From assembly GCF_900109665.1 (NCBI RefSeq), contig NZ_FOAO01000007.1:62001-126000 (forward strand): a DNA stretch of 64,000 nucleotides, read 5' to 3'. Position 1 is the first letter of the stretch. Every line of letters begins with the position of its first letter. This DNA comes from Blastococcus sp. DSM 46786. GTDB lineage: Bacteria; Actinomycetota; Actinomycetes; Mycobacteriales; Geodermatophilaceae. Below the pieces are notes generated by a model that made no database searches, was not told where the DNA came from, and worked only from the letters and a program-made list of their open reading frames with translations. This document shows, piece by piece, positions 10,676 through 39,661 of the stretch. The position numbers were made by a program, and so were the translations under genes.

Positions 10676-10693
10676 CCACGTCCCGGAGGAACC

Positions 10694-21320: not shown

Positions 21321-23396
21321 ATGGAACGGGTGGCCCTGGGCCGCCCCAGCGGGACCCGGGACGCCGTTCCGGCGCCGGAGAGCGCCGCGCGGCTGCTCGT
21401 GGTGCGCACCGTGGCCGTCGCCGCCGTCCTGGCCACCGCCGGTTACCTGACCTGGCGGTTGCTGGCGACCCTGCCCGAGGGCGCCGCCCTCTGGCTGGGC
21501 GTGCCGTTCCTCGCGCTGGAGCTCTACGGCGGACTCGCCCTCGTGCTGTTCGTGATGACCACCTGGGACGTCGCGCCGGCGACCGTGCCGGCGCCCCGCC
21601 CCGGGCCGCCGCCGTCGGTCACCGTGCTCGTCGCCACCTACAACGAGCACCTCGACGTGCTGCTGCCGACCGTCGCCGCCTGCCTGGCCATGGAGGGCGA
21701 GCACGAGACCTGGGTGCTCGACGACGGCGATCGGCTCGAGGTCGAGGAGATGGTCACCGCGCTGGGCGCCCGCTACGTCACCCGCGCCGAGCACGACCAC
21801 GCCAAGGCAGGCAACCTCAACCACGCGCTGGCGCTGGTGCGCACCGACCTCGTCGCAGTGTTCGACGCCGACCACGTGCCCGACCCGGACTTCCTCACCC
21901 GCACGCTGCCCTACTTCGCCGACGACCGGCTGGCGCTGGTGCAGACGCCGCAGCACTTCTACAACACGAGCTCCTTCGAGCACCTGCGCGAGGGGGCCGA
22001 CCTGCACGAGGAGTCGCTGTTCTACCGGGTGATCCAGGCCGGCAAGCACCACGCGGGGGCCGCCTTCTGGTGCGGGACCAACGCCGTGCTGCGGGCCGAG
22101 GCGCTCCGCGAGATCGGGGGCGTGGCCACCGAGTCGCTCACCGAGGACTTCCACACCACCATGAAGCTGCACCGCGCCGGGTGGCGGAGCGTCTACCACA
22201 ACGAGGTGCTCGCCCGCGGGCTGGCGGCGGGCAGCCCCGACGCCTTCTACGCGCAGCGCCGGCGGTGGGGCCGCGGCGCGATGCAGGTGCTGCGGCACGA
22301 CAACCCGCTGACCGCCACGGGGCTGACCCCTCGGCAGCGGCTCGGCTACCTCTACTCCCTGTCGGCGTGGTTCGACTCGTGGCGGACGCTGGGCCTGGCC
22401 CTCGTGCCGGTGAGCGTGCTGGTCACCGGGGTGTTCCCGGTGGACGCGCCGCCCGCGCTGTTCGCGGTGATGGCGGGCGTCCCGTTCCTCCTGCAGCAGG
22501 TGGCGCTCGGCCTGCTGTCGCGGGGGTTCGCCCCGGCGCGCTTCTCGCTGCTGTTCGAGGTCGTCCGGCTGCCCTCCAACCTCGCGGCCACGCTCTCGCT
22601 GGTGCTGCGCGGCACGGGCCGGTTCGCGGTCACCGCCAAGGGCCGCACGGGGGAGGAGCGCACCCGCGCCCGGGTGCCCGCGCTGCTGCTCGCGCTCGCC
22701 GCCGTGCTCGTCGGGAGCCTGCTCTTCACCGCGGCGAGCCTGGCCGGCTGGACGCCGGTCGAGCACGGGCTGGGCGGCACCACGCTGGTGCCGGTCTTCT
22801 GGGTGGCGACCACCCTGGGCTTCGTCGTCGCCGGCATCCGCCGCATCCGCGACCCGCGCTTCTCCGCCGAGCGCCGGGACGGGCACCGCTTCCCGGCCGC
22901 GCTGTCCGCCGTCGTCGAGGGGGCCCCGGCCCGGCTGGTCGACGTCTCGCTCGGCGGCGCGCAGGTGCGCGTCCGCGGGGTCGGCGCCGCCGTCGGCGCC
23001 GAGGTGGAGCTCGCCATCCGCGTGCCCGACCGCGCCGCGCACGTCGTCTTCCGCACGGTCGTCCGGTCCCGCAGCGGGGACGTCCACCGCCTGCAGTTCG
23101 TCGGGCGGCAGTGGCGCGAGCTGGCCGCGCTCTCGGCGACGGCGTTCGGCGCCGGCGCCGCCCGCTGGGCGGCCGTCGAGATCACCCCCGTCGCGGTGGA
23201 GGCGCCCGTCGCCCCCGGCCGCCGGGTGCCGGCCGCCTCGCTCCACCCGGACGCGGTGTCCGCCGCGGTGCGCAGCCCGTTCGTCGCCCCGGCCGCCCGA
23301 CGTCCGGGAGACGACGACACCCGGCCGATCCCGCGGCTGACCCCGGAGCTGGAGCGCGCGCTGGCCGGCGCCGACGGTGGTGGCTCCGGCCGGTGA
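21321..23396 (+). CDS. Membrane glycosyltransferase family 2 with C-terminal PilZ domain (BcsA-like)
   Basis: 691 residues from the ATG at 21321 (GTG 21315 possible). Two helices precede a processive GT2 domain: VATYNEHLDVLLPTV, VLDDGDRL, FDADHVPDPDFL (DxD), TESLTEDFHTTMKLHRAGW (TED) and QRRRWGRGAMQ (QxxRW). Four or five more helices follow. PilZ begins near residue 530 with ERRDGHRFPA (RxxxR) and VDVSLGGAQVRV (D-x-S-x-x-G), the c-di-GMP-binding signature. It probably makes an exported beta-glucan switched on by c-di-GMP. No bcsB-like partner is adjacent, so it is not a standard cellulose operon. Confidence 0.88.
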   Translation: MERVALGRPSGTRDAVPAPESAARLLVVRTVAVAAVLATAGYLTWRLLATLPEGAALWLGVPFLALELYGGLALVLFVMTTWDVAPATVPAPRPGPPPSVTVLVATYNEHLDVLLPTVAACLAMEGEHETWVLDDGDRLEVEEMVTALGARYVTRAEHDHAKAGNLNHALALVRTDLVAVFDADHVPDPDFLTRTLPYFADDRLALVQTPQHFYNTSSFEHLREGADLHEESLFYRVIQAGKHHAGAAFWCGTNAVLRAEALREIGGVATESLTEDFHTTMKLHRAGWRSVYHNEVLARGLAAGSPDAFYAQRRRWGRGAMQVLRHDNPLTATGLTPRQRLGYLYSLSAWFDSWRTLGLALVPVSVLVTGVFPVDAPPALFAVMAGVPFLLQQVALGLLSRGFAPARFSLLFEVVRLPSNLAATLSLVLRGTGRFAVTAKGRTGEERTRARVPALLLALAAVLVGSLLFTAASLAGWTPVEHGLGGTTLVPVFWVATTLGFVVAGIRRIRDPRFSAERRDGHRFPAALSAVVEGAPARLVDVSLGGAQVRVRGVGAAVGAEVELAIRVPDRAAHVVFRTVVRSRSGDVHRLQFVGRQWRELAALSATAFGAGAARWAAVEITPVAVEAPVAPGRRVPAASLHPDAVSAAVRSPFVAPAARRPGDDDTRPIPRLTPELERALAGADGGGSGR

Positions 23397-24911: not shown

Positions 24912-25658
24912 TCAGCTCCGGCGGAACATCGTCGCGCCGACCAGGACGACGGCCCCCAGCACGGCCAACTGCAGCACCGGCGCGGCCAGGGGCGCGACGA
25001 TGAGGAGCCCCGCGCCGGCCGCTGCACCGGCGACGAGCCCCACGAGGATCTCGATGCTGTGCCAGACCTCCCGCACGCCGCGGCCGGTCGCCAGCCGAAT
25101 CACCACGGTGGTGAGCGTGCCGGTCAGGTAGGTCGTCGACATGCCGCTGACGCCGAACCGCTGGACGGTGCTGCTCTGGATCCCCAGTGCGGCGGACATG
25201 GCGAAGAGCAGTACCAGGGTCAGCGCCGTCCCGGGTCCTGCGCCGGTGATCCACCAGCCGACGGCGTAGCCGGCCAGGAGGACCAGCTCGACGGTGAGGG
25301 CCACCGTCACCGGCCGCGGCCAGATCCGGTCCCCGGGGATCGGGCTACCGGCCAGGCGCGCACCCAGCGCCGCGCCGGCGCAGAAGGCGATGATGGCGCC
25401 GCCCGACGCGATGGCCAGCTCAGCGTCCGCCGTGCTCGCGGAGGCGCCCAGGATCACCAGGTTTCCCGTCATGACACTGGTGAAGGCGCCGCCGAGGGCC
25501 ATCAACCCGATCGCGTCGGTCGCGCCACTGACGACGGCGAGGGCGACCACCAGGGTCTGGCGCAGGCGCAGCGCGCGGCGGCGCACGTCCTCCGCCACGG
25601 TCGGTCCGCTGGTGGGTGTGGTCGTCGCGGCGGGGGAGGTCGTTGAAGGCCCGGACAC
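24912..25658 (-). CDS. DUF1275 (YoaK) family membrane protein
   Basis: 248 residues from a GTG at 25658 (GTG 25598 possible). Six hydrophobic helices carry the two conserved family segments: SGATDAIGLMALGGAFTSVM followed by TGNLV in helix 1, and LGIQSSTVQRFGVSGMSTTY followed by LTGTL in the fourth. The family function is unknown. It is divergent from the HDO gene and shares its promoter gap, which holds two TGTGCA words. Confidence 0.85.
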   Translation of the reverse strand: MSGPSTTSPAATTTPTSGPTVAEDVRRRALRLRQTLVVALAVVSGATDAIGLMALGGAFTSVMTGNLVILGASASTADAELAIASGGAIIAFCAGAALGARLAGSPIPGDRIWPRPVTVALTVELVLLAGYAVGWWITGAGPGTALTLVLLFAMSAALGIQSSTVQRFGVSGMSTTYLTGTLTTVVIRLATGRGVREVWHSIEILVGLVAGAAAGAGLLIVAPLAAPVLQLAVLGAVVLVGATMFRRS

Positions 25659-25701
25659 CCATGCAGGATCCCTGCCGGCCGTTCCCGGAAGCCCTGGTCC
25701 A

Positions 25702-25732
25702 TGTGCACACGAAACTGGCGGAGGCCTGTGCA
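25702..25732. promoter_or_regulatory. Paired TGTGCA(CA) words in the HDO promoter gap
   Basis: An exact palindrome TGTGCACA at 25702-25709 and a TGTGCA at 25727-25732 lie between the divergent DUF1275 and HDO genes, 84-114 bases before the HDO start. The same word occurs before the pucR-type gene and both transporters of this cluster. Confidence 0.4.
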
Positions 25733-25815
25733 GGATGACCGTCGGGTTGGACGAGTGACGCACCTAACTTGGAGGACGCAAGCCCGAGCCCACGCTTCGC
25801 CAGGGAAGGCACTCC

Positions 25816-26562
25816 ATGACCGCCACGCTCAACCGCCCCACCACCGAACTGCTCGACCACGACGAGTTCCGCGCCGCTCTGCAGGACGCGATCAAGGGCC
25901 GCGAGGCCAAGAACGCCTCCTTCAGCAAGGCGTGGGCGGACGGCAAGCTCGAGCGGCACCACTTCGCCCGGTGGGCCGAGAACCACTACCAGTACGTCGG
26001 CCCCTTCGCCGACTACCTGGGCATCGTCTACGCCAACACCCCGGACACCATCACCGAGGCCAAGGATTTCCTGCTCCAGAACATGTACGAGGAGGAGCTG
26101 GCGGACATCCGGCACACCGACCTGCTGATCCGCTTCGGCGAGGCCTGCGGGACGACCAAGGAGCGGATCGAGGACCCGAACAACGCCAACGCGGTGACCC
26201 GTGGCCTGCAGGCCTGGTGCTACGCGACGGCGCTCCGGGAGCACTTCGTCGTCGCCACGGCGGCGCTCGTCGTCGGCCTGGAGTCCCAGGTGCCCGAGAT
26301 CTACAAGAAGCAGATCGTCCCGCTGCGGGAGACCTATGGCTTCACCGAGGACGAGATCGAGTTCTTCGACCTCCACATCACCTCCGACGTGGTGCACGGC
26401 GAGCGCGGCTACCAGATCGTGCTCGAGAACGCGAACACCCCGGAGCTGCAGCAGCGCTGCCTGCAGTTCGTCCGGTGGGGTGCGGAGATGCGGTATTCCT
26501 ACACCCGCTCGCTGTACGACACGTACGTCGCCCCCGACCTCGAGGCTGCTGCGCAGGCCTGA
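25816..26562 (+). CDS. Heme-oxygenase-like diiron oxidase (HDO; TenA/PqqC fold)
   Basis: 248 residues from an ATG. Often labelled TenA or iron-containing redox enzyme, it carries a full set of HDO iron ligands: E93-x6-H100 (YEEELADIRH), E156 (VVGLES) and H187-xxx-D191-xx-H194 (DLHITSDVVHGERG). Their spacing closely follows that of chlamydial CADD as I remember it, and the H-xxx-D-xx-H triplet is also seen in SznF and UndA. Such enzymes activate O2 for decarboxylation, N-oxygenation or C-C cleavage. Ferredoxin and ferredoxin-reductase genes follow directly, which would supply electrons. A cysteine at 135 recalls TenA thiaminase, but thiaminase does not need these metal ligands. The substrate is unknown. 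Confidence 0.8.
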   Translation: MTATLNRPTTELLDHDEFRAALQDAIKGREAKNASFSKAWADGKLERHHFARWAENHYQYVGPFADYLGIVYANTPDTITEAKDFLLQNMYEEELADIRHTDLLIRFGEACGTTKERIEDPNNANAVTRGLQAWCYATALREHFVVATAALVVGLESQVPEIYKKQIVPLRETYGFTEDEIEFFDLHITSDVVHGERGYQIVLENANTPELQQRCLQFVRWGAEMRYSYTRSLYDTYVAPDLEAAAQA

Positions 26563-26577
26563 CCGCGTCGAACGGAC

Positions 26578-26610
26578 CGGGGTGCCGGGCGCCACGCGTC
26601 CGGCACCCCG
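26578..26610 (+). terminator. 11-bp hairpin after the HDO gene
   Basis: Perfect arms at 26578-26588 and 26600-26610 with an 11-base loop, starting 16 bases after the HDO stop. It may partly separate HDO mRNA from the downstream electron-transfer genes. Confidence 0.6.
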
Positions 26611-26699
26611 AACTGTTCCGGCGGCCATCGCGCCGCTTCCACCCCTGATCCTCACCGGCCCCCGCCGGCACCTCCGCACGACCACGACCGGAGACCCTC

Positions 26700-27116
26700 G
26701 TGAGCGAGCCCACTCCCACTTCCCCGGCGCCCGTCGTCGACCAACCGGACACGGACTCCTGGGTGCACGTCGCCGAGTTCAAGGACCTCGCCCGCCGCAA
26801 GCGCAAGCAGGTCACCGTCGGCAGCTGCCCTGTCGCGCTCTTCCTCGTCGACGACGAGGTGCTCGCCGTGGACGACACCTGCATCCACCAGGAGCGGTCG
26901 CTGGCGAAGGGCACACTCCTGGGCGGCCAGGTGATCTGCCCCGGCCACCAGTGGAAGTTCGATCCCCGCACCGGGGAGGCCGAGGACCAGGACGGCCGCC
27001 TGGCCACCTACGCGGTCCAGGTCACCGAGGAAGGGGCGGTACTGGTCGCTCCCCAGCCGGTCACTCCCCGGGAGGCCACCACCTCCGACTCCGCGACGCA
27101 CCCGGCCGGGCGGTGA
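26700..27116 (+). CDS. Rieske-type [2Fe-2S] ferredoxin
   Basis: 138 residues from a GTG. The Rieske cluster motif is C-x-H (CIHQERSLAKG) and, after 16 residues, C-x-x-H (CPGHQWKF). The single small domain without membrane anchor matches soluble Rieske ferredoxins that serve oxygenases. With the reductase directly downstream (4 bases) and the HDO upstream, it is the likely electron donor to the diiron enzyme. The N- and C-terminal tails of about 15 residues each are polar and disordered. Confidence 0.9.
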   Translation: MSEPTPTSPAPVVDQPDTDSWVHVAEFKDLARRKRKQVTVGSCPVALFLVDDEVLAVDDTCIHQERSLAKGTLLGGQVICPGHQWKFDPRTGEAEDQDGRLATYAVQVTEEGAVLVAPQPVTPREATTSDSATHPAGR

Positions 27117-27120
27117 CCCG

Positions 27121-28350
27121 GTGAGCGAGCAGACCCTTGTCGTCGTCGGCGCCGGCCACGTCGCAGCGTCCGCTGCCCGGGCCCTGCGGCGCCGCGGCTT
27201 CGCCGGTCCCGTCGTCCTGATCGGGGACGAGCCCGTGGGCCCCTACCAGCGGCCGCACCTGTCCAAGGAACGCCTCTCCGCGGGTGGGGACGACGGTCTC
27301 TGGCTGCTGACCCCGGCCTGGTGCGAAGCCAATGACGTCACCCTGCGCACGAACAGCACGGTGGAGCGGATCGCCGCCGACACCGGCTCGGTGCTCCTGG
27401 CGGACGGCTCGTCCATCCCTGCCGACGTCGTCGTCCTCGCCACCGGCGGGCGCCCCCGCAGGCTCCCCGGCGTGGAGGGCGAACGGGTTCACTACATCCG
27501 CACGCTGGCCGACAGCGACCGGCTGCGCGAGCGGCTGTCGATCGGGCGCCGCATCGGCGTCCTGGGCGGCGGCTTCCTCGGCAGCGAGATCGCGGCCGCG
27601 GCCCTGGGGCGGGGTGCGGAGATCGTCGTGTTCGACCGCGACCCGGTACTGCTCGCCCGCGCCATGGGTGCCGATATCGGCGCCGCGCTCACCGGCCTGC
27701 ACCAGCGGCGCGGGATCGACCTGCGCCTCGGCCAGGCGATCAGCGCGATCCGTCCCGGCGCCGACGGCGTCACCATCGTCACCGAGAGCGGCAGCGAGAC
27801 CGTCGACGACCTCGTGGTCTGCATCGGGATCCAGCCCAACACCGAGGTCGCCGTCAGGTCCGGGCTGGTGGTCGGCAACGGTGTCGAGGTCGACGCCCAG
27901 GGCCGGACGTCACTGCCGAACGTGTTCGCCGCCGGCGACGTCGCCGCCCACGACCACCCCCTCTACGGGCGGGTCCGGGTGGAACACGTCGACGTCGCGC
28001 AGCGGCAGGCCGCCGCCATCGCGGCCACCGTGGCCGGGCGACCCTCCACCGCCGGCGACGCGCACTGGTTCTGGACCGACCAGTACGACATCAACGTGCA
28101 GGGCCTCGGGCTGACCGGGCTCCGGCCGACCGACACGGTGGTCACCCGCGGCAGCCTCGCCGACCTCGACGGCACGTCGTTCTGGCTCCGTGACGGGCTC
28201 CTGGTCGGCGGCGCCTCGATCGAGCGCGGCGAGGACCTCTCGGTCGCCCGCGAGCTGATGGATCTGGAGATCCCCGTCAGTGCCGAGCAGCTGGCCGACG
28301 AGTTGGTCGAGCTGGAGGATCTCCTGGAGCAGGAAGAGGTGCGGGTCTGA
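27121..28350 (+). CDS. FAD-dependent ferredoxin reductase (NAD(P)H)
   Basis: 409 residues from a GTG. Two dinucleotide-binding folds: FAD at VVVGAGHVAASAARALRRRG (residues 6-25), NAD(P) at IGVLGGGFLGSEIAAAALGR, and the second FAD motif TSLPNVFAAGDVA. The C-terminal domain with DAHWFWTDQYDINVQGLG is typical of oxygenase-coupled reductases (putidaredoxin reductase or BphA4 type). It passes electrons from NAD(P)H to the neighbouring Rieske ferredoxin. The final acidic tail (LADELVELEDLLEQEE) is longer than usual. The stop overlaps the ALDH start by one base. Confidence 0.92.
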   Translation: MSEQTLVVVGAGHVAASAARALRRRGFAGPVVLIGDEPVGPYQRPHLSKERLSAGGDDGLWLLTPAWCEANDVTLRTNSTVERIAADTGSVLLADGSSIPADVVVLATGGRPRRLPGVEGERVHYIRTLADSDRLRERLSIGRRIGVLGGGFLGSEIAAAALGRGAEIVVFDRDPVLLARAMGADIGAALTGLHQRRGIDLRLGQAISAIRPGADGVTIVTESGSETVDDLVVCIGIQPNTEVAVRSGLVVGNGVEVDAQGRTSLPNVFAAGDVAAHDHPLYGRVRVEHVDVAQRQAAAIAATVAGRPSTAGDAHWFWTDQYDINVQGLGLTGLRPTDTVVTRGSLADLDGTSFWLRDGLLVGGASIERGEDLSVARELMDLEIPVSAEQLADELVELEDLLEQEEVRV

Positions 28351-29816
28351 TGACCGTACGAACCGTACGCAACCTCGTCGACGGCGCCTGGGTCGAGTCG
28401 GTCACCGGCCGCACCCTGGAACGGCGCAACCCCGCCGACGTCCGGGAGGTCGTCAGCACCTTCCCCGAGTCCGACGCCAAGGACGCCGAGGCCGCGGTCT
28501 CCGCGGTCGCCGCCGGCTGGCAGCAGTGGGCCGACACGGCCCCGGAGCAGCGGGCGAAGGTCCTCGAGAACGCGGCCGCCGTCCTCGAGCGGCAGCGCGA
28601 CCCGCTGATCGAGGAACTCGTCCGCGAGGAGGGCAAGACCCGGGCCGAGGCCACGATGGAGGTCTCCCGGACGCCGATGAACCTGCGGTTCTACGCGGGC
28701 GAGGCGCTGCGCACCGCCGGCGTGACCCTCCCGACCGGCGACGGCAGCCTGGTCTTCACCCTGCGCGCCCCGGTCGGGGTCGTCGCGGCCATCACGCCGT
28801 GGAACTTCCCGCTGAACATCCCCTCCCGCAAGCTCGGCCCCGCCTTGGCCGCGGGCAACGGCGTGGTCTTCAAGCCCAGCGAGGTCACCCCGCTGCTCGG
28901 TCAGCGGCTGGTCGACGCCCTGCTCGAGGGCGGCCTCCCGGCGGGCGCCATCGCGGTACTGCACGGGGGCGCGGAGGTGGCCTCGGCCCTGGTGACCGAC
29001 GACCGGGTCGACGCCGTCACGTTCACCGGTTCCACGAACGTCGGCGAGGCGATCCACCGGGTCTCCCGCGCCAGCCAGCGCACCCAGCTCGAGATGGGCG
29101 GCAAGAACCCCGTGGTCGTCCTGGAGGACGCCGACCTCGACCGTGCGGCCACGCTCATCGCCAAGGGGGCCTTCGGGCTGTCCGGGCAGGCGTGCACGGG
29201 CACCAGCCGGGTGATCGTGCACGACGCGGTGCACGACGCGCTCGTCGACCGCATCGCGGCCAAGGCGCGCGGGCTCCGGCTGGGCCCGGGCCTCGCCGAC
29301 GGCGTCGACCTCGGCCCGCAGGCCACCGAGCGCCAGCAGCAGTCGGTCCTGGGCTACGTCGCCCGGGCGCTGGACGACGGCGCCATCCTCGTGGCGGGCG
29401 GCTCGGACGACGACACCCAGGACCTGACCGCGGGCGACCTCGCCCACGGCCTGTACGTGCGGCCGACCGTCTTCACGGACGTCGACCCGGCATCGGAGCT
29501 GGCCACCCAGGAGGTGTTCGGCCCGGTGCTGGCCGTGCTGCGGGTGCACTCGCTCGACGAGGCGCTCCGCGTCGCCGACGCCACCCGGTTCGGCCTGTCC
29601 GCCGGCATCGTCACCAGCGACGTCGGCCGCGCCATGACCTTCGCCCGGCGGGTCACCGCGGGGCTGGTGAAGGTCAACCAGCCCACCACCGGGCAGGCGA
29701 TGAACGCCCCGTTCGGCGGGTTGAAGGACAGCTCCACGCAGACCTCGAAGGAACAGGCCGGAGAATCGATGATGGCCTTCTACACGGTCGACAAGACCGT
29801 CTATCTCAGCGCATGA
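28350..29816 (+). CDS. NAD(P)-dependent aldehyde dehydrogenase
   Basis: 488 residues from an ATG overlapping the reductase stop. ALDH catalytic residues are N152 (TPWNFPLN), E248 (LEMGGKNP) and C282 (GQACTGTSR). The sequence resembles alpha-ketoglutaric-semialdehyde or related semialdehyde dehydrogenases (NAPFGGLKDSSTQTSKEQ at the C-terminus), but the substrate is not certain. In this operon it would oxidise an aldehyde released by the oxygenase reaction to a carboxylic acid. Its stop overlaps the next start by ATGA. Confidence 0.92.
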   Translation: MTVRTVRNLVDGAWVESVTGRTLERRNPADVREVVSTFPESDAKDAEAAVSAVAAGWQQWADTAPEQRAKVLENAAAVLERQRDPLIEELVREEGKTRAEATMEVSRTPMNLRFYAGEALRTAGVTLPTGDGSLVFTLRAPVGVVAAITPWNFPLNIPSRKLGPALAAGNGVVFKPSEVTPLLGQRLVDALLEGGLPAGAIAVLHGGAEVASALVTDDRVDAVTFTGSTNVGEAIHRVSRASQRTQLEMGGKNPVVVLEDADLDRAATLIAKGAFGLSGQACTGTSRVIVHDAVHDALVDRIAAKARGLRLGPGLADGVDLGPQATERQQQSVLGYVARALDDGAILVAGGSDDDTQDLTAGDLAHGLYVRPTVFTDVDPASELATQEVFGPVLAVLRVHSLDEALRVADATRFGLSAGIVTSDVGRAMTFARRVTAGLVKVNQPTTGQAMNAPFGGLKDSSTQTSKEQAGESMMAFYTVDKTVYLSA

Positions 29817-30256
29817 GCGCCCCGGAGGAGACCATGACCGTCAACCCCGCGTCGGACGAGGAACTGGCCGAGGCCGGTACCGAGTGCGCGTTCGTCCGCA
29901 TCTGCCGCGCCGGACAGGTGCCGAACGGCTACGTGCGCCGCTTCTACGCGGACACCGAGCACGGCGAGATGGAACTCGCGGTGGCCCGGCTCGACGGCAA
30001 GGCCTACGCCACGTCGAACTACTGCACGCACCTGGACTGCCTGCTCAGCTCGGGCAAGCTGCAGGACGACGGGATCCGTTGCTCCTGCCACAACAGCGTC
30101 TTCGACCTCGAGACCGGCGAGCCGATCCAGCCCCCGGCGACCGAGCCCATCCGTACCTACCCGGTGAAGGAGGAGGACGGGCAGGTGCTCGTCGGGCTCT
30201 CCCAGCGTGACGTGCTGGAGGGCGGCCCCCGCCGCCGCCGGCCACCGTCGGCATGA
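29813..30256 (+). CDS. Second Rieske-type [2Fe-2S] protein
   Basis: 147 residues from an ATG overlapping the ALDH stop (an internal ATG at 29834 is possible). The cluster motif is CTHLDC and, 16 residues after the first histidine, CSCHNSVFDLETGEP. The core sequence (VPNGYVRRFYADTE, MELAVARLDGKAYATSNYC) resembles ferredoxin subunits of non-heme iron oxygenases. A second Rieske protein beside one diiron oxidase is unusual. It might serve another oxygenase or a separate electron-transfer step. Its stop overlaps the next start by ATGA. Confidence 0.88.
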   Translation: MSAPEETMTVNPASDEELAEAGTECAFVRICRAGQVPNGYVRRFYADTEHGEMELAVARLDGKAYATSNYCTHLDCLLSSGKLQDDGIRCSCHNSVFDLETGEPIQPPATEPIRTYPVKEEDGQVLVGLSQRDVLEGGPRRRRPPSA

Positions 30257-31890
30257 CGACGGGCGGGCTCGCGCCGGGGGTGTGGCCGGAGTCCTGGGGC
30301 CCGGTCCGCACGCCGACCCTGGCCACCGGCGGGATGGTCGTGAGCAGTGCGCCGGCGGCCAGCCAGATCGGCGCGCGCCTGGTGGGCGACGGGGCGACGG
30401 CGATCGACGCCGTCCTCGCGATGACCGCGGTCTCCTGGCTGGTCCTGCCCGGGCAGTGCGGGATCGGCGGCGACTTCTTCGCCGTCGTCCGGGAGCCGGA
30501 CGGCCGGATGTGGACGGTCAACGGCAGCGGGTTCGGTCCCGATGGCGCCTCGGCCGAGGGCTATCTCGACCGCGGGCTGTCCGCGGTCCCGCTCACCGGG
30601 CCGCAGGCGGTCGCCGCCCCGGGTGCGATCAGCGCTCTGGCGACGCTGCACCGGCTCGGTGGCACGCGGGAGCTGCCCGACCTCTGGGCACCGGCCGCCG
30701 CCGCGGCGCGCCGCGGGGTCCCCTGCACGGCCAAGAACCGCCGCGACATCACCGAGCACGCCCGCGAGCTGGCCCTTGATCCCGGCCTGGCCCGCTGGCT
30801 GCTCCCCGGCGGGCGCATCCCGTCGGTCGGCGACCTGCTGTCCTCCGCCGAGCTGGCCGGCACCATCGAGCTCCTGGCGAGGGAGCCGCAGGCCCTCTAC
30901 CGCGGCCCGATCGCCGAGCGCACGATCGAGCTGCTGCGCGCCGGCGGTGCGCCGTTCTCGGGCGACGAGTGGGTGCTGGCCGGCGACGTGCCCGCAGAGG
31001 AGGCGATCAGCGCCCCGTACGGCGACGTCACGGTCCACCAGACGCCGCCGCCCTCACCAGGCTGGATGGTGCTGCAGCAGGCCGGTCTCCTCGACGGGCA
31101 GCTGACCCGGCTGCCGACGGCGGGTGCCGAAGCTGTGCACCTGCTCGGCCTCGCGGCCCGGAGGGCCTTCCGGGACCGGTACGAACGCTGCGCCGCCGAC
31201 GACGACGCCTGGCGCGAGCTGCTCACCCCTGACGAGCTGGCGCGGGCGCGACGCGACCTCGTCCGCGAGCCCGCGACCGTGGGTGCGCCGACGGGCATCG
31301 CGGGCGACACGACGAGCTGCGTCGCCGTCGACGGCGAGGGCCGGGCGGTCAGTGCCATCTCCTCGCTGGCGTTCACGTTCGGGGCCCGCATCTCGATCCC
31401 CGGCACCGCCGTCGCGCTCAACAACCGGCTGGCACGGGGCACGTACCTGATCCCGGGGCACCCGAACGCGCTGGCTCCCCGCCGCAAGCCGCTGCACACC
31501 CTCAACGCCTGGATCGCGACCGATGCGGCCGACCGGCTGCGACACGTGGGGAACACCCCGGGCGGCGACGGCCAGGTGCAGTGGAACATGCAGCTGCTCT
31601 CGTACCTCGTCGACGGCGGGCTGGACCCTCAGCAGGCGGTGTCGGCGCCCCGGACGACCGTGCACCCCGGCAGCGACGCCGATGCCCTGGGCGCCCCCGA
31701 GACCCTCCAGTGCGAGAGCCGGCTGGGCGGTGACGTGCTCGCCGGCCTCGTCGAGCGCGGGCACGACGTCCGCGACGTGGGGGCGTGGGGCGGCGGTGGC
31801 AGCGCGCTGGTCGTGTCGATGGATCACGACCGGGGCGTGCTGGCCGGCGCCGCGGACCCGCGGCAGGACGGGGTGGCGCTCGGTGTCTGA
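30253..31890 (+). CDS. Gamma-glutamyltransferase-family N-terminal nucleophile hydrolase
   Basis: 545 residues from an ATG. The large-subunit part has GGMVVSSAPAASQIGARLVG and the LPGQCGIGGDFFAVV region. The autoprocessing site is GDTTSCVAVDGEGRA, with T353 as expected nucleophile; most members have TTH here, so the serine after the threonine pair is unusual. The small subunit lacks the classic GSPGG but has NTPGGDGQVQWNMQ. No signal peptide is present, so unlike classical GGT it should act in the cytoplasm, perhaps removing a gamma-glutamyl or similar acyl group from a pathway intermediate. It is translationally coupled on both sides. Confidence 0.85.
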   Translation: MTTGGLAPGVWPESWGPVRTPTLATGGMVVSSAPAASQIGARLVGDGATAIDAVLAMTAVSWLVLPGQCGIGGDFFAVVREPDGRMWTVNGSGFGPDGASAEGYLDRGLSAVPLTGPQAVAAPGAISALATLHRLGGTRELPDLWAPAAAAARRGVPCTAKNRRDITEHARELALDPGLARWLLPGGRIPSVGDLLSSAELAGTIELLAREPQALYRGPIAERTIELLRAGGAPFSGDEWVLAGDVPAEEAISAPYGDVTVHQTPPPSPGWMVLQQAGLLDGQLTRLPTAGAEAVHLLGLAARRAFRDRYERCAADDDAWRELLTPDELARARRDLVREPATVGAPTGIAGDTTSCVAVDGEGRAVSAISSLAFTFGARISIPGTAVALNNRLARGTYLIPGHPNALAPRRKPLHTLNAWIATDAADRLRHVGNTPGGDGQVQWNMQLLSYLVDGGLDPQQAVSAPRTTVHPGSDADALGAPETLQCESRLGGDVLAGLVERGHDVRDVGAWGGGGSALVVSMDHDRGVLAGAADPRQDGVALGV

Positions 31891-32314
31891 GGCACCGGGG
31901 ACGTCGGTCCCGCCGCAGGGCGCTTACGTGCCCGCCGTCGTGCACGGTGGGCTGGCCTGGACCGCGGGGATGACACCCCGCCGGCACGGCGAGCTCGTGG
32001 TCCACGGCGTCGTGGGCCGCGATCTCGACATCCCCGCCGCCCGGGAGGCGGCCGGCCTCGCCGCCCACAACGCCGTCACCGCGCTGGTGGAGGCCGTCGG
32101 TCTGCCCGGTATCGAGCGGGCGCTGAAGATGACCGTCTTCATCGCCGCCGCCGACGGGTTCACCGCCCACTCGGCCGTGGCCGACGGCGCCTCGAAGGTG
32201 CTGCGGGAGCGCCTGGGGGACCGGGGCGCGGTCGCCCGCAGCGCCGTCGGCGTCCGCACCCTCCCCTCGGGAGCCCCCGTCGAGGTCGAGCTCGTCGCCG
32301 CCGTCCGCCCCTGA
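31883..32314 (+). CDS. RidA/YjgF/YER057c family protein
   Basis: 143 residues from a GTG that overlaps the previous stop by 8 bases. The fold is a chorismate-mutase-like trimer. AVVHGGLAWTAGMTP and AHNAVTALVEAVGLPGIERA are conserved, and RSAVGVRTLPSGAPVEVELV carries the arginine that binds carboxylates in imine-hydrolysing members, with VEVELVAAV ending the domain. RidA proteins hydrolyse reactive enamines and imines. Placement with an oxidase and ALDH suggests that an imine forms in the pathway. It is the last gene of the operon, followed by a terminator. Confidence 0.88.
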   Translation: MSEAPGTSVPPQGAYVPAVVHGGLAWTAGMTPRRHGELVVHGVVGRDLDIPAAREAAGLAAHNAVTALVEAVGLPGIERALKMTVFIAAADGFTAHSAVADGASKVLRERLGDRGAVARSAVGVRTLPSGAPVEVELVAAVRP

Positions 32315-32362
32315 CGCGTGGCAGCTGTGCCCGCACGGCCGTCGCCGGTGGTGCCACCTCGA

Positions 32363-32399
32363 CCGGTGGCCACCGGACCGCGGGTCCGGTGGCCACCGG
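32363..32399. terminator. Perfect 17-bp inverted repeat, bidirectional terminator
   Basis: Arms 32363-32379 and 32383-32399 pair exactly around a GCG loop. It lies between the convergent RidA gene (ends 32314) and GlcG/HbpS gene (ends 32417). Confidence 0.8.
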
Positions 32400-32416
32400 A
32401 CGGATGGCAGCGGAGG

Positions 32417-32866
32417 TCAGCCGGCGGGGGTGGCCACGTGGTCGGCGAAGGCCTGCAGCGCCGCGGCGCCGACGGCCTTGTCCTGTTCGCCGTTGCCGCC
32501 GCTCACGCCGACGGCGCCCACGATCTGGCCCTCGTGCACGATCGGGAAGCCACCGACGAAGATCGCGAACTTGCCCGGCAGCATGTGCGAGATGCCGAAG
32601 GCCTCGTTGCCCGGGAGGGCGGGGCCGTTCGGCGGCTCGTTGAACAGGTGGGTGGCGCGCTCGTGCCCCGCCGCGGTGAACGCCTTGGCGATCGAGATCT
32701 CCACGCCCGTCAACCGGGCGCCGGGCAGCCGGTGCAGCGCGATGACGTTCCCGCCGTCGTCGCACACGCAAATCGTCTGCTTGACGCCGAGCTCCTCGGC
32801 CTTCGCACGTGCCGCCTGGAGCACCGGCAGGGCGTCGTCGAGAGTGATGCGGAAGACCTGATGCAC
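32417..32866 (-). CDS. GlcG/HbpS (DUF336, PduO C-terminal-like) protein
   Basis: 149 residues from a GTG; a strong AGGAGGAGAA ribosome binding site just upstream (32871-32880) decides this start. Family features are EELGVKQTICVCDDGGNVIA, AKAFTAAGHERATHLF, and GGFPIVHEGQIVGAVGVSGG followed by NGEQD. Members bind heme or corrinoid or have no known ligand, and they are frequent in catabolic clusters. It is convergent with the HDO operon and divergent from the PucR regulator, so it may belong to the same regulon. Confidence 0.85.
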   Translation of the reverse strand: MHQVFRITLDDALPVLQAARAKAEELGVKQTICVCDDGGNVIALHRLPGARLTGVEISIAKAFTAAGHERATHLFNEPPNGPALPGNEAFGISHMLPGKFAIFVGGFPIVHEGQIVGAVGVSGGNGEQDKAVGAAALQAFADHVATPAG

Positions 32867-33006
32867 GGGGTTCTCCTCCTCCGGCGGGTGGGCCGGGTCT
32901 GACGGCTGCCGGGCTCCTCGGGTCGGGAACCGGCGGAGGCACCACCATGGGGGCTGGCGGTGCACGGCAACAATGGTGAGACTGCAGCCTCGACCTCGCC
33001 CGCGGT

Positions 33007-33014
33007 TGTGCACA
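33007..33014. promoter_or_regulatory. TGTGCACA palindrome before the PucR gene
   Basis: An exact 8-base palindrome 16 bases before the ATG at 33031, in the divergent gap with the GlcG/HbpS gene; a further GTGCAC lies at 32960-32965. It could be an autoregulatory site. Confidence 0.4.
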
Positions 33015-33030
33015 GTGACTGAGGAGGGCC

Positions 33031-34734
33031 ATGCCGCACGCTTACTCGGACGACGCGCTGACCCTGGCGCGGTTGCTCCAGGAGCCGGCGCTGCGCCGGG
33101 CCCGCATCCACGCCGGGCGCGCGGGCGCGGTGACCCGGGTGGAGTGGGTGGTGCCGTGGTCGGTCGCCGCTGGGCAGGACGATCCGCTCACGGGTGTCCT
33201 GGTCCATGCCCATCCCGGCGAGCTGGCGCGGGACCAGGTCACCGTCACGCGCGCGGCGGAGCGGCTGGCGGCTTGCGGCGCCGCGGCGCTCCTGGTGGAC
33301 GGCCACCAGCCCGTCGCCTCGGACGCGGTCGCCGCCTGCCAGCTCCCGCTGGTCACCATGGCCGACACGGTGCCCTTCGCCGCGCTCAACCGGCTCGTGG
33401 CCGACCTGACGCTGGCCCGCGAGACGCACGTCCTCCGCTACGGGCTCACCGTCCACCGTGCTCTGGCCGAGCTGCTCTACCGCGGCGCGGAGCTCTCCGC
33501 CCTGTGCAGCCAGCTGAACCGGATGTCGCAGCGGCCGGTGGCCGTCTTCGACAACCAGGGCCAGCTCGCCGCCCTGGAGCAGGGCCAGCCGCGCACGGTG
33601 GAGGCCGCCGACCTGGTCACGGCGTTCGCCGAGCAGGGCGACGCTCTCGGTACCCGGCAGGCGCCCGAGCAGCTGCACCCCAGAACGGTGGGGATCCGGC
33701 TGGCCGACCGCGAGCTGGCCTGCATCGTCACGCCGATCGTGCTGGGCGGGCGGCACGATGGCTGGATCCTGCTGCTCGAGGAATCCGATGACCCCCATCC
33801 GCACGACCTGGCCGAGCACCGGGTCCTCGTCGAGCAGGCCGCACCCATCGTGGGCACCGAGATGCTGCGGCTGCGCAGCGTCCAGCGGGCCAAGGAACAA
33901 GCGCGCGGTGATTTCGTCCACGGTCTGCTGCACGGGCGGTTCGCGACCGCGGAGGACATCAGCCCCCGGGCGGCCCACTACGGGTTCCCGGTCCGGTCGT
34001 GGTTCGGGGTCGTGGTCGCCTCGGGCATGGCGGTGCCTGCGGACGTCGATTCACCCGCCCGGCTGCAGCAGGTCGGGATGGAGGCGGCGCGGCTGCTGTC
34101 CGAGCAGGGGCGGCACACGCAGGCGGCGATGGTCGGCGACGTGCTCGTCGTCGTCCGGGAGGCGGCGCGCCGCGGGACGATGGGGACGCCCGAGGCCGCC
34201 GCCGCCGCCATCGGTGACTACGCGACGGCCCTGCACCAGTACCTCTCCCGGCGTAAGGACCAGGGGGGCCGTCCGGTCCGCGTGACGTACGGCCGGCCGG
34301 CCGTCGGCGCCCTGGCGATCCCGGACAGCTACCGCGAGGCCCGCATGGCCCACGGACTGCAGCAGCGACTCGGCCTGCCCGCCGTCTGCGGCTTCCAGGA
34401 ACTGCGCGTGCACGCGGTGCTCGAGGACGTGGCTGGCAGCCGGACCGGCCGCTCTTACGCCACCGACCTCCTGGCACCACTGCGGGACCCGTCCGCCGGT
34501 GAGCTGGAGGCGACAGTGCTGGCCTACATCGCCGCGGGCGGCAACGTGAACGCGGCCTCGCGCGACCTGCACATCCACCGGAACACGATGCTGTACAAGC
34601 TCGACCGCGCATCGCGGCTCCTGGGGATGGACCTGCGTCAGGCGGAGAACCAGTTCGCCGTGTGGCTGGCGCACACCCTGGACCTCCTGGCGACGACCAC
34701 CGCCGAGGTGGACCGGGTCGTCAGCCCCGGCTGA
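33031..34734 (+). CDS. PucR-family transcriptional regulator
   Basis: 567 residues from an ATG preceded by GAGGAGG. The N-terminal PucR ligand domain (about 1-130) contains ALTLARLLQEPALRRARI and ACQLPLVTMADTVPFAALNR. A GAF-like middle and a degenerate GGDEF-like region follow. The C-terminal PucR helix-turn-helix is VLAYIAAGGNVNAASRDL and HIHRNTMLYKLDRASRLLG. PucR proteins control purine, amine or amino-acid catabolism. Location in the middle of this cluster makes it the likely pathway regulator, acting on TGTGCAC-type sites; the site assignment is inference. Confidence 0.9.
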   Translation: MPHAYSDDALTLARLLQEPALRRARIHAGRAGAVTRVEWVVPWSVAAGQDDPLTGVLVHAHPGELARDQVTVTRAAERLAACGAAALLVDGHQPVASDAVAACQLPLVTMADTVPFAALNRLVADLTLARETHVLRYGLTVHRALAELLYRGAELSALCSQLNRMSQRPVAVFDNQGQLAALEQGQPRTVEAADLVTAFAEQGDALGTRQAPEQLHPRTVGIRLADRELACIVTPIVLGGRHDGWILLLEESDDPHPHDLAEHRVLVEQAAPIVGTEMLRLRSVQRAKEQARGDFVHGLLHGRFATAEDISPRAAHYGFPVRSWFGVVVASGMAVPADVDSPARLQQVGMEAARLLSEQGRHTQAAMVGDVLVVVREAARRGTMGTPEAAAAAIGDYATALHQYLSRRKDQGGRPVRVTYGRPAVGALAIPDSYREARMAHGLQQRLGLPAVCGFQELRVHAVLEDVAGSRTGRSYATDLLAPLRDPSAGELEATVLAYIAAGGNVNAASRDLHIHRNTMLYKLDRASRLLGMDLRQAENQFAVWLAHTLDLLATTTAEVDRVVSPG

Positions 34735-34755: not shown

Positions 34756-36120
34756 TCAATCAGGTACCGCGGCCAGGCCGAGCGCCGGGACCGTGCGGTG
34801 GTGCTCGGTCCGTGCCTGGTATTGGGCGGCGACGCCCAGCACGGTCGGGACGTCGCGGCCCACGACCTGCAGGCCGATGGGCAGGCCGCCCGTGGTGAAC
34901 CCGCAGGGCACCGTGACCGCGGCCAGGCCGCACCAGCTGAACGGACCGCACAGGCGCATCAACGTGGCCACGACCGGCGAGCGCCCGCCGCCGTCCGGGG
35001 TGAACGCGCACTCCTCGACGGTCGGTCCCGGGATGGCCGTCGTCGGGAGCACCACGACGTCGACCTCCTCCAGCCCGGCGCGCAGCAGTGCCTCGAGGCG
35101 GTGCAGCTCCCGGACGGCACGCTCCCGCTCGTGCGCGGTGATCGTCTCGGCCAGGGCGAGGTAGCTGGCCACCTCCTCCCCGTAGCGGGCCGCGCGGTGG
35201 GGATACCAGCCTGCCGCCCGGTGGACGGTGAGGAAGTCGTGCAGCACGTAGACGGTCCGGGGGCCGCTCCAGGCTGCGAACGGCGGAACGCGCACCGCGG
35301 CGGTCGTCGCACCCTCCGCGACCAGCTCGCGTACCCCTGCCTCGACCGCCAGCAGGACCTCCGGGTCGACGTCCCCGAGGTCCGCCGCGGGGACGACGCC
35401 CACGCGCAGGCCGGCGATCGTCGCGTCCAGCGTGCAGCGCGTCGCGGAGAGCACCCCGAAGAGCAGCGCGAGGTCCTCGGCGTCCCCGGCGATCGGGCCG
35501 CAGGTGTCGAGCTTGGGCGAGAACGGCAGGCAACCCCCGGTGGGGATGTCCGACGGTCGGGGCCGCAGCCCCGACACACCGCAGAGCGCCGCCGGGACCC
35601 GGATGGATCCCCCCGTGTCGCTGCCCAGTGCCCCGGTGCACTCGCCCGCGGCGACGGCCGCGGCCGAACCGCCGCTGGAGCCCCCCGGGATGCGTGTGAC
35701 GTCCCACGGATTCCTGGTGGGCGGGGTGGTGACCCCGTGGGCGAACTCGTGGGTCGCGGTCTTACCGAGGATCAGCGCGCCGGCCTCCCGCAGCCGCCGG
35801 ACCGCCGGCGCGTCGGTCGTCGCGGGCCGTCCGTCGGTGACGCGGGAGCCGCCCCGGGTGGGATGGCCGCGGACGTCGATGAGGTCCTTCACGGCGATGG
35901 GGACGCCGTGCAGGGGCCCCCGGAACCGGCCGCGGGCCGCCTCGTCGGTCAGGGTCGCGGCCTCCGCCCGCAGCCGCTCCTCGTCGACCGAGACGAACGC
36001 CCTGATCGCCGGCTCCACGGTCCGCATCACGTCGAGGGAGCGGTCGAGCTCCTCCGACGCCGAGCGGCGCCCGGAACGGATGTCCCGGGCGACCGCCCGC
36101 AGCGCGACACGGGTCACCAC
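34756..36120 (-). CDS. Amidase-signature-family amidase
   Basis: 454 residues from a GTG (a second GTG directly follows). A GAGGGAGGT ribosome binding site lies directly upstream. The Ser-cisSer-Lys triad is K78 (PIAVKDLID), S148 (GGSSGGSAAA) and S172 (GSDTGGSIRVP). No GatB or GatC genes are near, so it is a catabolic amidase and not part of the tRNA amidotransferase. It would hydrolyse an amide to a carboxylate and ammonia or amine, consistent with a nitrogen-releasing pathway. It is followed within 50 bases by the first transporter gene on the same strand. Confidence 0.9.
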   Translation of the reverse strand: MVTRVALRAVARDIRSGRRSASEELDRSLDVMRTVEPAIRAFVSVDEERLRAEAATLTDEAARGRFRGPLHGVPIAVKDLIDVRGHPTRGGSRVTDGRPATTDAPAVRRLREAGALILGKTATHEFAHGVTTPPTRNPWDVTRIPGGSSGGSAAAVAAGECTGALGSDTGGSIRVPAALCGVSGLRPRPSDIPTGGCLPFSPKLDTCGPIAGDAEDLALLFGVLSATRCTLDATIAGLRVGVVPAADLGDVDPEVLLAVEAGVRELVAEGATTAAVRVPPFAAWSGPRTVYVLHDFLTVHRAAGWYPHRAARYGEEVASYLALAETITAHERERAVRELHRLEALLRAGLEEVDVVVLPTTAIPGPTVEECAFTPDGGGRSPVVATLMRLCGPFSWCGLAAVTVPCGFTTGGLPIGLQVVGRDVPTVLGVAAQYQARTEHHRTVPALGLAAVPD

Positions 36121-36169: not shown

Positions 36170-37822
36170 TCACCAGATCACCGCAGCGACGACCACGCTG
36201 AGGATCAGCCCGCTGACGACCGGGATGAAGAGCTTCCGGGCGAGGGTGGCGACCGGTACCCCGGTGAGGCCGGCGACGGCGATGAGCGAGGACCAGATGA
36301 CCAGCGTTCCGCCGCCGGTCCAGCCCGCCGCGTTCTGCGCGATGGCCGCCAGGGTCGCGGTGTCGCCGCCGGAGGAGGAGGCGAAGGCCTGGGCGAGCTC
36401 GCCGGTGAACGGCAGGCCGGCCCAGCCGGAGCCGTCCAGGCCGATCAGCATGCCGGCCAGCAGCATGGCGAACATGATCACGATCTTGTTGTCGGGGATG
36501 AAGCCCTGGCCGCTGGCGATGACGTCGAACAGGAAGCCAGGAGCCTCGGCGTCTTCGGGCAGCAGCATGATCTGACCGGAGAAGTCGGAGATGCCGATGA
36601 GCACGAACCCGGCGACGGGGATGACGACGCCCATGGCGCGGAAGGCGAACAGCAGGCCGTCGACGAAGTGCTCGCCGGCCCGCTCCAGGCCGTCCCCACC
36701 GGAGGAGAGGGTCACGCACAGCATGAGCAGCAGCGCCAGCCCGCCGACCAGGGCGGCTCCCCAGCCGGCCTCGACCTCCGGCACCCAGTCCGTGACCTTG
36801 CCGAGGATCATGTAGAGCACCAGCGCGCCGAAACCGAGCGGAACGGCGGTCGCGAACAGCTGCGCCCGCTGGTTGCTCCCGGCCCGGGCGCCCGGGCCGC
36901 CATCCGCACTGTCGAGACCCTTGGTGATGCCGGTACCGGAGAGGCCGTCGCGGCCGTCGGCACCGGGCAGGCCGTTGCCGCCGCTGGTGTCGCCACCGCC
37001 GCCGTTCCCGATCGAGCCGGCCGGCTGACCGGGCTGCGCCGTGGCTCGCGGCGGCCGGTCCTTCGTGATCAGCGCGTCCCCGACCGTGGCGGAGATGTTC
37101 TCGACCTCGATGGTCGACGTGGAGGCGCCGCTCGCCACGACCGTACGGCGGCTGGTCCGGCTCAGGGAACCAGGGAGCACGCGGGCCAGCGAGCGGCCCC
37201 GGACGTGGACGACGTAGGTCAGGGTGATGGCGACCGCACCGACCACCCAGCTCAGGATCAGCGCGCGGTCGGCGATGTCACCGGCGGGAACGCCGGCCCC
37301 GGCGGCCGACAGGCTCGGGGCCACCCCGAGGACGTAGTCGGAGGCCAGCGCCATGCCCTGGCCGGCGATGGCGATGGCCATGGCGGCCGCGAGCGGAGAG
37401 AGCCCGGCACGGATGGCGGCGGGCAGCAGGATCGCGGCCAGCAGCGCCAGGGTCGGCGTCGGCCAGAACACCAGGGAGAGCAGGTAGGTGCCGACGAAGA
37501 GCACGGCGTAGGAGATCGGGCCGTTCTTCATCAGCTTGGCGATCGGCGCGATCATCCGCTGGTCGGCATCGATCGTGCGCATCGCACCCAGCAGGGCGGT
37601 CACGACGGCGAGGACCAGGAAGATGTTGAGGAACTGCGTGGTCGCCACCATGCTCGCGCTGAACACCGAGCCGAGGCCGTTGAGGAAGTCCCCGGTGTAG
37701 AGCCACGCCGTGACGAACGTGGCGATGATCGCGGGCACGATCACGTTCTTGCGCATGACCATCACGACGAGCAGCGATGCCACGCCCGCCATGTAAACCC
37801 AATGTGCAACCGTCAACTCCAT
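36170..37822 (-). CDS. Multi-spanning transporter-like protein, copy 1
   Basis: 550 residues from an ATG with GGAGGG just upstream. About six helices, a soluble linker (roughly residues 205-305), then six more. Conserved pieces are AHWVYMAGVASLLVVMVMRK, FWPTPTLALLAA, IAGQGMALASDYVLGVAPSL, FVDGLLFAFRAMGVVIPVAG, and GSGWAGLPFTGEL. The linker is glycine-rich and partly collagen-like (GLPGADGRDGLSG). A clear paralogue lies at 39662. The two-half layout recalls the ion-transporter superfamily of anion symporters, but I do not know a named family. The substrate may be the compound degraded by this cluster. Confidence 0.75.
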   Translation of the reverse strand: MELTVAHWVYMAGVASLLVVMVMRKNVIVPAIIATFVTAWLYTGDFLNGLGSVFSASMVATTQFLNIFLVLAVVTALLGAMRTIDADQRMIAPIAKLMKNGPISYAVLFVGTYLLSLVFWPTPTLALLAAILLPAAIRAGLSPLAAAMAIAIAGQGMALASDYVLGVAPSLSAAGAGVPAGDIADRALILSWVVGAVAITLTYVVHVRGRSLARVLPGSLSRTSRRTVVASGASTSTIEVENISATVGDALITKDRPPRATAQPGQPAGSIGNGGGGDTSGGNGLPGADGRDGLSGTGITKGLDSADGGPGARAGSNQRAQLFATAVPLGFGALVLYMILGKVTDWVPEVEAGWGAALVGGLALLLMLCVTLSSGGDGLERAGEHFVDGLLFAFRAMGVVIPVAGFVLIGISDFSGQIMLLPEDAEAPGFLFDVIASGQGFIPDNKIVIMFAMLLAGMLIGLDGSGWAGLPFTGELAQAFASSSGGDTATLAAIAQNAAGWTGGGTLVIWSSLIAVAGLTGVPVATLARKLFIPVVSGLILSVVVAAVIW

Positions 37823-37897: not shown

Positions 37898-38000
37898 GAT
37901 CACCGGGATGCGGTGGTGATCGTTTGCCGAACGTAGCGGCGGACGTGAAGTAGGTCACTGGCACTGTGCTCAGCCTTGACCTCACGGTTTGTGCACCGTG
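37898..38000. promoter_or_regulatory. Two inverted repeats upstream of transporter copy 1
   Basis: GATCACC at 37898-37904 pairs with GGTGATC at 37915-37921. Further out, CACGGT (37983-37988) pairs with ACCGTG (37995-38000) around TTGTGC, which includes a TGTGCAC word at 37990-37996. The gap 37823-38049 holds no gene; these repeats are the only structure I see. Confidence 0.4.
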
Positions 38001-39489: not shown

Positions 39490-39555
39490 AGACGTCCTCC
39501 CGGTTGCCCTGTGCGGGACAGCGTGCCAAGCCCGGGCGACGGTTCCTACGGCACG

Positions 39556-39586: not shown

Positions 39587-39661
39587 TTCGTTCATGGACT
39601 CGCCCCCGCCGTTCCGGGAGCTTTTGCGTCCATCACATTGGGCTCACCTGTAGGGGCATCG

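Follow-up and report, generated by a model that had tools for sequence, protein, structure and literature searches.

What is the role of a heme-oxygenase-like diiron oxygenase (HDO) that is encoded together with Rieske-type ferredoxins, a ferredoxin reductase and an aldehyde dehydrogenase (ALDH)? The question is raised by a locus of Blastococcus sp. DSM 46786 that lies within a stretch of 64,000 nucleotides of contig NZ_FOAO01000007.1 (positions 62,001 to 126,000; hereafter the window), for which a sequence-only reading had proposed an oxidative pathway. The HDO class is growing fast and, as far as the parts of the HDO literature used here go, its validated members serve biosynthesis. We found that the HDO gene belongs to a conserved gene module, and we put at about 60% the probability that this module encodes a substrate-inducible catabolic pathway, controlled by a PucR-family regulator, in which the HDO oxidatively cleaves an organic anion to an aldehyde. 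Literature searches, judged by title and the start of the abstract, gave no description of this gene set, which agrees with the earlier view that it is undescribed.

An HDO is encoded with a Rieske-type electron-transfer chain

The seven-gene run from HDO to RidA, with its HbpS/GlcG, PucR, amidase and transporter neighbours, is real and had been placed correctly by the sequence-only reading. All genes that it named between 25816 and 34734 are present on the strands assigned to them, with Pfam matches above the curated cut-offs except for the N-terminal domain of PucR. The HDO gene (25816–26562, plus strand) encodes 248 residues that match Haem_oxygenas_2 at 121.5 bits (cut-off 28.9), and structure models predict the seven-helix fold of heme oxygenase-like proteins. 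Its ligand set of three histidines and three carboxylates comprises E93, H100, E156, H187, D191 and H194, five of which are kept in 85/85 aligned sequences and E156 in 84/85. The deviating protein, from Geodermatophilus sabuli (L010, near 10001–10729), has a lysine in place of Glu156, and an HDO match in G448:C3, with 87% identity like that of L010, carries one in-frame TGA; perhaps this is a decaying copy, though G448 retains the other module genes searched.

Downstream on the same strand follow Rieske-type ferredoxin 1 (26700–27116; 138 aa), which has a CxH...CxxH motif, no catalytic domain and cluster ligands kept in 76/76 sequences; a ferredoxin-NAD+ reductase resembling AndAa and HcaD, with FAD and Reductase_C domains (27121–28350); the ALDH (28350–29816); Rieske-type ferredoxin 2 (29813–30256; cluster ligands in 70/70), with two possible ATG starts at 29813 or 29834 and 140 aa long from the latter; a GGT-family, Ntn-type amide hydrolase (30253–31890); and a Rid-family imine/enamine deaminase (RidA; 31883–32314). 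The overlaps of 1–8 bases noted earlier hold at four of the six junctions (reductase/ALDH, 1 base; ALDH/ferredoxin 2, 4 bases with the ATG at 29813; ferredoxin 2/GGT, 4; GGT/RidA, 8), whereas ferredoxin 1 and the reductase are spaced by 4 bases and HDO and ferredoxin 1 by 137. Next come HbpS/GlcG (DUF336; 32417–32866, minus strand) and the PucR-family regulator (33031–34734, plus strand), whose HTH_30 and GGDEF_2 domains score over cut-off, while its N-terminal PucR domain falls below it (28.0 versus 33.5 bits). The module extends past 34734 to about 41359, adding an amidase, an MFS transporter and two permeases of one family.

No Rieske oxygenase alpha subunit is encoded among the module genes of the window, and both Rieske proteins (138–140 aa) consist of the Rieske domain only. 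For the reductase and the ferredoxins the top-scoring models are of the AndAa/HcaD and HcaC types, with scores under the cut-offs. In these parts the module is like the Rieske non-haem oxygenase systems, such as the anthranilate and phenylpropionate dioxygenases, but it has neither an alpha nor a beta subunit and has the HDO in that place. A dedicated partner for an HDO has a precedent in mangotoxin synthesis, where, according to the part of the report used here (PMC13185094), MboA works with the NADH-fed flavin/2Fe-2S protein MboB. MboAB is biosynthetic, however, and the actinobacterial module uses Rieske ferredoxins and a separate FAD reductase instead.

The module is conserved, rare and patchily distributed

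A pattern-based scan of the genome collection gave 252 HDO relatives, of which the best 80 were kept; all 80 loci are from Actinomycetota, with HDO identities of 80–99%, the HDO of B. capsensis being 99% identical to that of the window. Full 10-kb flanks were available for 62 of the 80 loci, and in these we counted components by tblastn (at least 50 bits). The numbers are minima, because some components are encoded beyond the 10-kb limit (MFS and the permease Perm2 at 12–15 kb in the window, Perm2 at about 14 kb in G448). Both Rieske ferredoxins and the reductase were found in all 62 loci, ALDH, RidA and PucR in 61, HbpS in 60, GGT in 59, and MFS and the permease family in 58 each; 54 of the 62 hold all of these, the permease not counted. 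In 62/62, the co-occurring Rieske-ferredoxin/reductase chain has no candidate terminal oxygenase other than the diiron HDO. When we looked for a lack of conserved linkage, the result was clearly the opposite: components recur in 58–62 of the 62 loci, and HDO, HbpS and GGT go together in 10 genomes of the family. Together with the conserved HDO ligands, this bears out the proposal that the HDO is the centre of a conserved unit that is oxidative and probably catabolic. Gene order falls into at least four layouts (Geodermatophilaceae; Rhodococcus/Mycolicibacterium; Pseudonocardia/Streptomyces; Actinomadura), and the linkage therefore exceeds that of a single inherited block.

Within the Geodermatophilaceae, the family of the window, HDO occurs in 10/112 genomes. 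The same 10 genomes hold the HbpS subtype at 91–99% identity (next best match there, 45%) and the GGT at 71–100%, and Perm2 occurs in those 10 and in G430 (two pieces, 52% and 44%). In a sample of the phylum, 3/396 genomes match HDO at E ≤ 1e-20, namely the source genome, G031 and G040, the last through a CADD-like protein. The module is rare and patchy. HDO and HbpS are its slowest-changing members, with mean p-distances of 0.14 and 0.20, as against 0.30–0.54 for eight others measured; co-variation of distances with HDO (r 0.46–0.86) is accounted for by shared ancestry and was given no weight. No neighbour that tells the substrate emerged, as beyond the module no gene cluster occurs in more than 19/80 loci. 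The rarer clusters look like shared flanks of related species (ribosomal protein genes, for example) or a second DUF1275-like protein, clusters 12–28 having been judged from examples without a family search.

A core is shared with Betaproteobacteria

Outside the Actinomycetota, HDO (63–70%) is found on six Cupriavidus and Caballeronia replicons. Three of these were examined (L086, L087 and L088, the content of L088 being judged by its likeness to L086); of six plasmid-collection matches, those examined were H2, H4 and H5. The betaproteobacterial loci, including that of Cupriavidus metallidurans CH34 (L086), hold an ALDH (46–49%), HbpS (52–58%) and a permease of the same family, along with plant-type ferredoxins, an ornithine-cyclodeaminase-family (OCD) protein and a Fer2/FAD/NAD reductase of the same general build as the partner of MboA. 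Neither GGT nor RidA has a match in the three loci. In another actinobacterial class HDO occurs in 4/345 genomes, including G031. There, L103 and L104 hold HDO, a Rieske protein or ferredoxin, HbpS and ALDH beside GntR-like regulators, L103 also with the permease, and at L105 there are HDO, a Rieske protein and a ferredoxin. These three loci gave no GGT or RidA match, the flanks of L104 and L105 being incomplete. L089, the remaining locus of this class, has in addition an OCD-family protein, a Rid protein and a 29–30% match to GGT.

Because HDO, ALDH, HbpS and 2Fe-2S proteins are kept in three betaproteobacterial loci and two of the other class where neither GGT nor RidA was found, GGT and RidA look like lineage-specific add-ons and HbpS like a core member. 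In our count, therefore, the core comprises HDO, ALDH, HbpS, a 2Fe-2S chain and, in most cases, the permease, the additions being GGT, RidA and the amidase. HbpS, listed earlier as a neighbour, is nearly as conserved as HDO.

A palindrome marks the module promoters

The palindrome TGTGCACA was first noticed among repeated 9-mers upstream of HDO. The 80 loci contain 53 copies, of which 49 are intergenic although intergenic sequence makes up 15.4% of the total; the corresponding binomial value of 2e-35 is overstated because the loci are related. Forty-seven copies stand at most 300 bp upstream of module genes, the highest figure among all 256 8-base palindromes (next, 26/648), 14 of them before HDO, where the motif was discovered, and 33 elsewhere. 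Perfect sites are found in promoters of the permease (15/67), MFS (13/58), HDO (12/80), HbpS (7/59) and PucR (5/69), and seldom before GGT (1/44), ALDH (0/17), RidA (0/31) or other genes (5/517). With one end base relaxed, the same promoters score 55/67, 34/58, 48/80, 24/59 and 24/69, and the remainder 5/44, 1/17, 3/31 and 37/517. The palindrome is absent from all eight loci without a match to the window PucR (seven with HDO, plus L098), and no longer inverted repeat is common upstream of HDO (best, 4/80 loci).

The window has two perfect sites, one upstream of HDO (25702–25709), which is intergenic if the divergent DUF1275 gene starts at 25598 and lies inside it if the longest reading frame (to 25763) is used, and one between HbpS and PucR (33007–33014). 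One-mismatch sites occur in the Perm1/MFS gap (37990–37997, with a second at 37965), in the MFS/Perm2 gap (39580–39587) and inside GGT. To judge from these patterns, TGTGCACA is probably a PucR operator, PucR being the natural candidate for its binder. The source genome holds 8 copies in total, 2 of them in the module; the other six, at rpoA-, ribosomal protein- and dnaA-dnaN-like genes and other unrelated genes (named from reading the sequence, without a family search), were rejected as regulon members. The copy between the dnaA- and dnaN-like genes (G000:C33:89756; L109) may be DnaA-box-like.

The module permease has a predicted likeness to organic-anion carriers

Beyond PucR lie the amidase (34756–36120, minus strand), the adjoining Perm1, a second copy of the module permease family (36170–37822, minus; its start may be 37903), the MFS transporter (38050–39561, minus) and Perm2 (39662–41359, plus). 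Perm1 and Perm2 could be assigned to no family in Pfam or NCBIfam; for one relative from Cupriavidus, DUF2721 matched below threshold. With modest scores, the predicted structure of Perm2 resembles MleN, TRAP, DASS and YdaH carriers, which are mostly carboxylate transporters, suggesting an organic-anion permease.

Transport genes of other kinds and permease relatives in other settings were also seen. At L034 and L036 (3100–8500) a Rid gene stands, by sequence reading, within a branched-chain amino acid-type ABC transporter operon, with no module permease in view. In G430 (C71:13500-26071; L097) a permease relative without HDO lies near Rieske oxygenase-, reductase- and hydrolase-like pieces and a PucR-like gene, these identities again having been read from the sequences with no family search. 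On plasmid p1 of Arthrobacter sulfonylureivorans (L098), typed as conjugative, another permease relative is accompanied by an LLM oxidoreductase, a flavin reductase, an amidase, an ALDH, a Rid gene and CoA-pathway genes, which looks like another degradation cluster.

A proposed pathway for a nitrogenous carboxylate

We infer the following course. The substrate, an organic anion and probably a carboxylate that contains nitrogen, would enter through Perm2 and perhaps the MFS transporter. NADH would supply electrons to the reductase, which would hand them on, by way of one or both Rieske ferredoxins, to the HDO; as a diiron terminal oxygenase the HDO would fill the slot of a Rieske oxygenase alpha subunit and split the substrate oxidatively, releasing an aldehyde. 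The module ALDH would oxidise this aldehyde to an acid, and HbpS may bind it or guard against it. In Actinomycetes two enzymes would complete the nitrogen side, the GGT-like amide hydrolase and a Rid deaminase that would convert an imine or enamine to a carbonyl compound and ammonia; in Betaproteobacteria the OCD-family enzyme would take the imine step instead.

Rid and OCD-family enzymes act on imino acids in known cases, and their presence hints at an amino-acid-like substrate. The nitrogenous substrate proposed earlier is indicated indirectly, by Rid in most Actinomycetes and by the OCD-family protein in Betaproteobacteria and L089; it is probably a nitrogenous carboxylate. The best-scoring models for the ALDH are those of 2,5-dioxovalerate dehydrogenase, whose cut-offs it does not reach. 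In a tree of 38 rows, 25 chosen module ALDHs separate from 12 paralogue rows of the source genome with support of 94/89 (92% of 200 bootstrap trees), or 95/85 when the loci of layout B are omitted, some of the paralogue branches being long. The nearest PDB relative of HbpS is EfgA rather than a secreted haem protein, and the equivalents of the EfgA formaldehyde-site residues K57, S114 and D121 (K61, S122 and D129 in the window, counted by hand from the alignment) are kept in 66/66 module HbpS proteins. In these residues the module HbpS is like EfgA, of the EfgA/GlcG/PduO-C group of DUF336 proteins; it differs in being operon-bound and tied to an HDO.

The GGT-like protein scores 189 bits against TIGR00066 (cut-off 358). 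Its catalytic threonine region is kept, with GDTT in 61/65 rows and the other four gapped, but the position of the arginine that binds the gamma-glutamyl carboxylate, which we take to be R114 in the E. coli enzyme, is Gly-Ser-Gly in 52/65, the other 13 being gapped. Gamma-glutamyl compounds were accordingly rejected as its substrates. The NGSG motif of the module protein and its catalytic region align with the NGSG and GDTT/GGTV-type regions of PDB entries 2i3o and 2nlz, which are labelled 'GGT related' and 'cephalosporin acylase' and name no substrate. Of the two enzymes earlier suggested to release nitrogen or a masking group, the GGT-type one does not have the residues of a gamma-glutamyl enzyme, and the amidase, beside Perm1, is patchy (14/62). 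The Rid protein keeps R118 in 53/53 rows, presumably the active-site R105 of the Rid family, and reads as a divergent Rid, because its 26.9 bits against TIGR00004 fall far below the RidA subfamily cut-off of 106.

A sharper version of the catabolic explanation, which we consider unlikely, follows the Rut pyrimidine pathway, in which RutB removes an acyl group and RutC deaminates an enamine. The HDO would open an N-heterocycle to an N-acyl enamine aldehyde, the ALDH would oxidise it, the GGT-like enzyme would deacylate it and RidA would deaminate it. This would explain the ALDH, amide hydrolase and Rid protein jointly, and the shared logic extends to an oxygenase, a permease and a regulator; the permease relatives on the Arthrobacter plasmid and in G430 keep company that fits, as does the assignment of RutC as a 3-aminoacrylate deaminase in the portion of PMC8113886 drawn on here. 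However, no RutA LLM monooxygenase is found among the module genes of the window, a RutB-type hydrolase is likewise absent, and ALDH and HbpS are additional. The same HDO must function in the betaproteobacterial loci, L103 and L104, in which neither GGT nor RidA was found, and the parts of the HDO literature consulted hold no ring-opening HDO.

Detoxification, in which HDO, ALDH and HbpS would inactivate a xenobiotic or plant toxin sensed by PucR and exported by MFS, strikes us as improbable. The occurrence in 10/112 family genomes and 3/396 of the phylum sample would fit, as would the MFS gene and the EfgA-like DUF336 protein, but such patchiness is usual in catabolic islands, and nutrient use is better matched by amide hydrolases, a Rid deaminase and a permease of organic-anion type that is often present twice.

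The HDO differs from biosynthetic relatives

By sequence the HDO is nearest to CADD and PqqC, and the roughly dozen validated HDOs in the sections of a 2026 review available to us are biosynthetic. Synthesis of a cofactor or natural product, as by CADD, UndA, BesC and the metal-free relative PqqC, must therefore be weighed, yet its likelihood seems low, lower than that of detoxification. The HDO scores 91 bits against the CADD pABA synthase model TIGR04305 (cut-off 200) and 42.9 against the PqqC equivalog of NCBIfam (cut-off 240). It lacks the tyrosine and lysine of CADD, the aligned positions being Ser37 and Gln166 in 85/85; we take these residues to be the sacrificial Tyr27 and Lys152. On residues and profile scores together we reject pABA or PQQ synthesis. 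The recurring genes, moreover, are importers, PucR and ALDH, and no further gene family exceeds 19 of the 80 loci, the rarer clusters being judged as above. Relative to the HDO superfamily (UndA, BesC, CADD, SznF, HrmI, AetD and MboA), the distinctive point is the setting, an operon that looks catabolic and also encodes Rieske ferredoxins and a Reductase_C reductase. A role in thiamine salvage, as a hydrolase of TenA type, or in haem degradation together with HbpS is very improbable: a weak TENA_THI-4 match (5e-9) and the names of the HDO fold and HbpS speak for it, but the six non-haem diiron ligands are conserved, the closest solved HbpS relative is EfgA, and no thiamine or haem-uptake gene is among the module genes.

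Several observations weigh against the catabolic pathway that we prefer. No catabolic HDO appears in the consulted sections of the 2026 review, and we know of no precedent. Two of five HDO models have a mean pLDDT below 50; the 80 loci, as the best of 252, lean to close relatives; and perfect TGTGCACA sites are present in 34/80. Layout-B ALDHs are 39–45% identical to the window ALDH, near the paralogue level of 33–40%. The EfgA-like residues carry little information about an aldehyde because, according to the passages of the EfgA paper used here, they are largely conserved throughout DUF336. Permease fold matches reach E 0.001 in only three cases (best TM 0.55/0.65), and the list includes phosphate (Pho90) and sulfate (NaS1) carriers. 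Of the indirect signs of nitrogen, neither Rid nor OCD was found in L103 or L104, and ALDH and HbpS were not found in the 12 kb examined at L105, where HDO lies 0.9 kb from the contig end.

Somewhat short of even odds, in our judgement, is the broader proposal of a new degradative class of multicomponent oxygenases in Actinomycetota and Betaproteobacteria, in which an HDO replaces the Rieske alpha subunit and works with Rieske or plant-type 2Fe-2S carriers, an ALDH and an obligatory aldehyde-handling DUF336 protein, acting on a compound that has no known pathway. If true, the HDO class would be widened by a degradative enzyme that has a Rieske chain of its own and is retained in two phyla; this would also offer a native electron supply for HDO biochemistry and give a testable setting for a DUF336/GlcG protein next to an aldehyde-forming oxygenase. 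The substrate is directly searchable, given a defined core (HDO, ALDH, HbpS and usually the permease), an operator-like site and a laboratory strain, C. metallidurans CH34, that carries the core.

Other features

The source genome encodes a second Haem_oxygenas_2 protein (G000:C19:34392-34922; L001) in a 395-aa frame, which is a stronger match to that family (200.7 bits) than the module HDO. Divergent from HDO in the window is a DUF1275 membrane protein gene (24912–25763), present in 18/62 full loci; a second DUF1275-like cluster occurs in 19 loci and adjoins the permease in L031. Farther upstream of the module, at 21330–23396, lies a cellulose-synthase-like gene for a family 2 glycosyltransferase with a PilZ domain.

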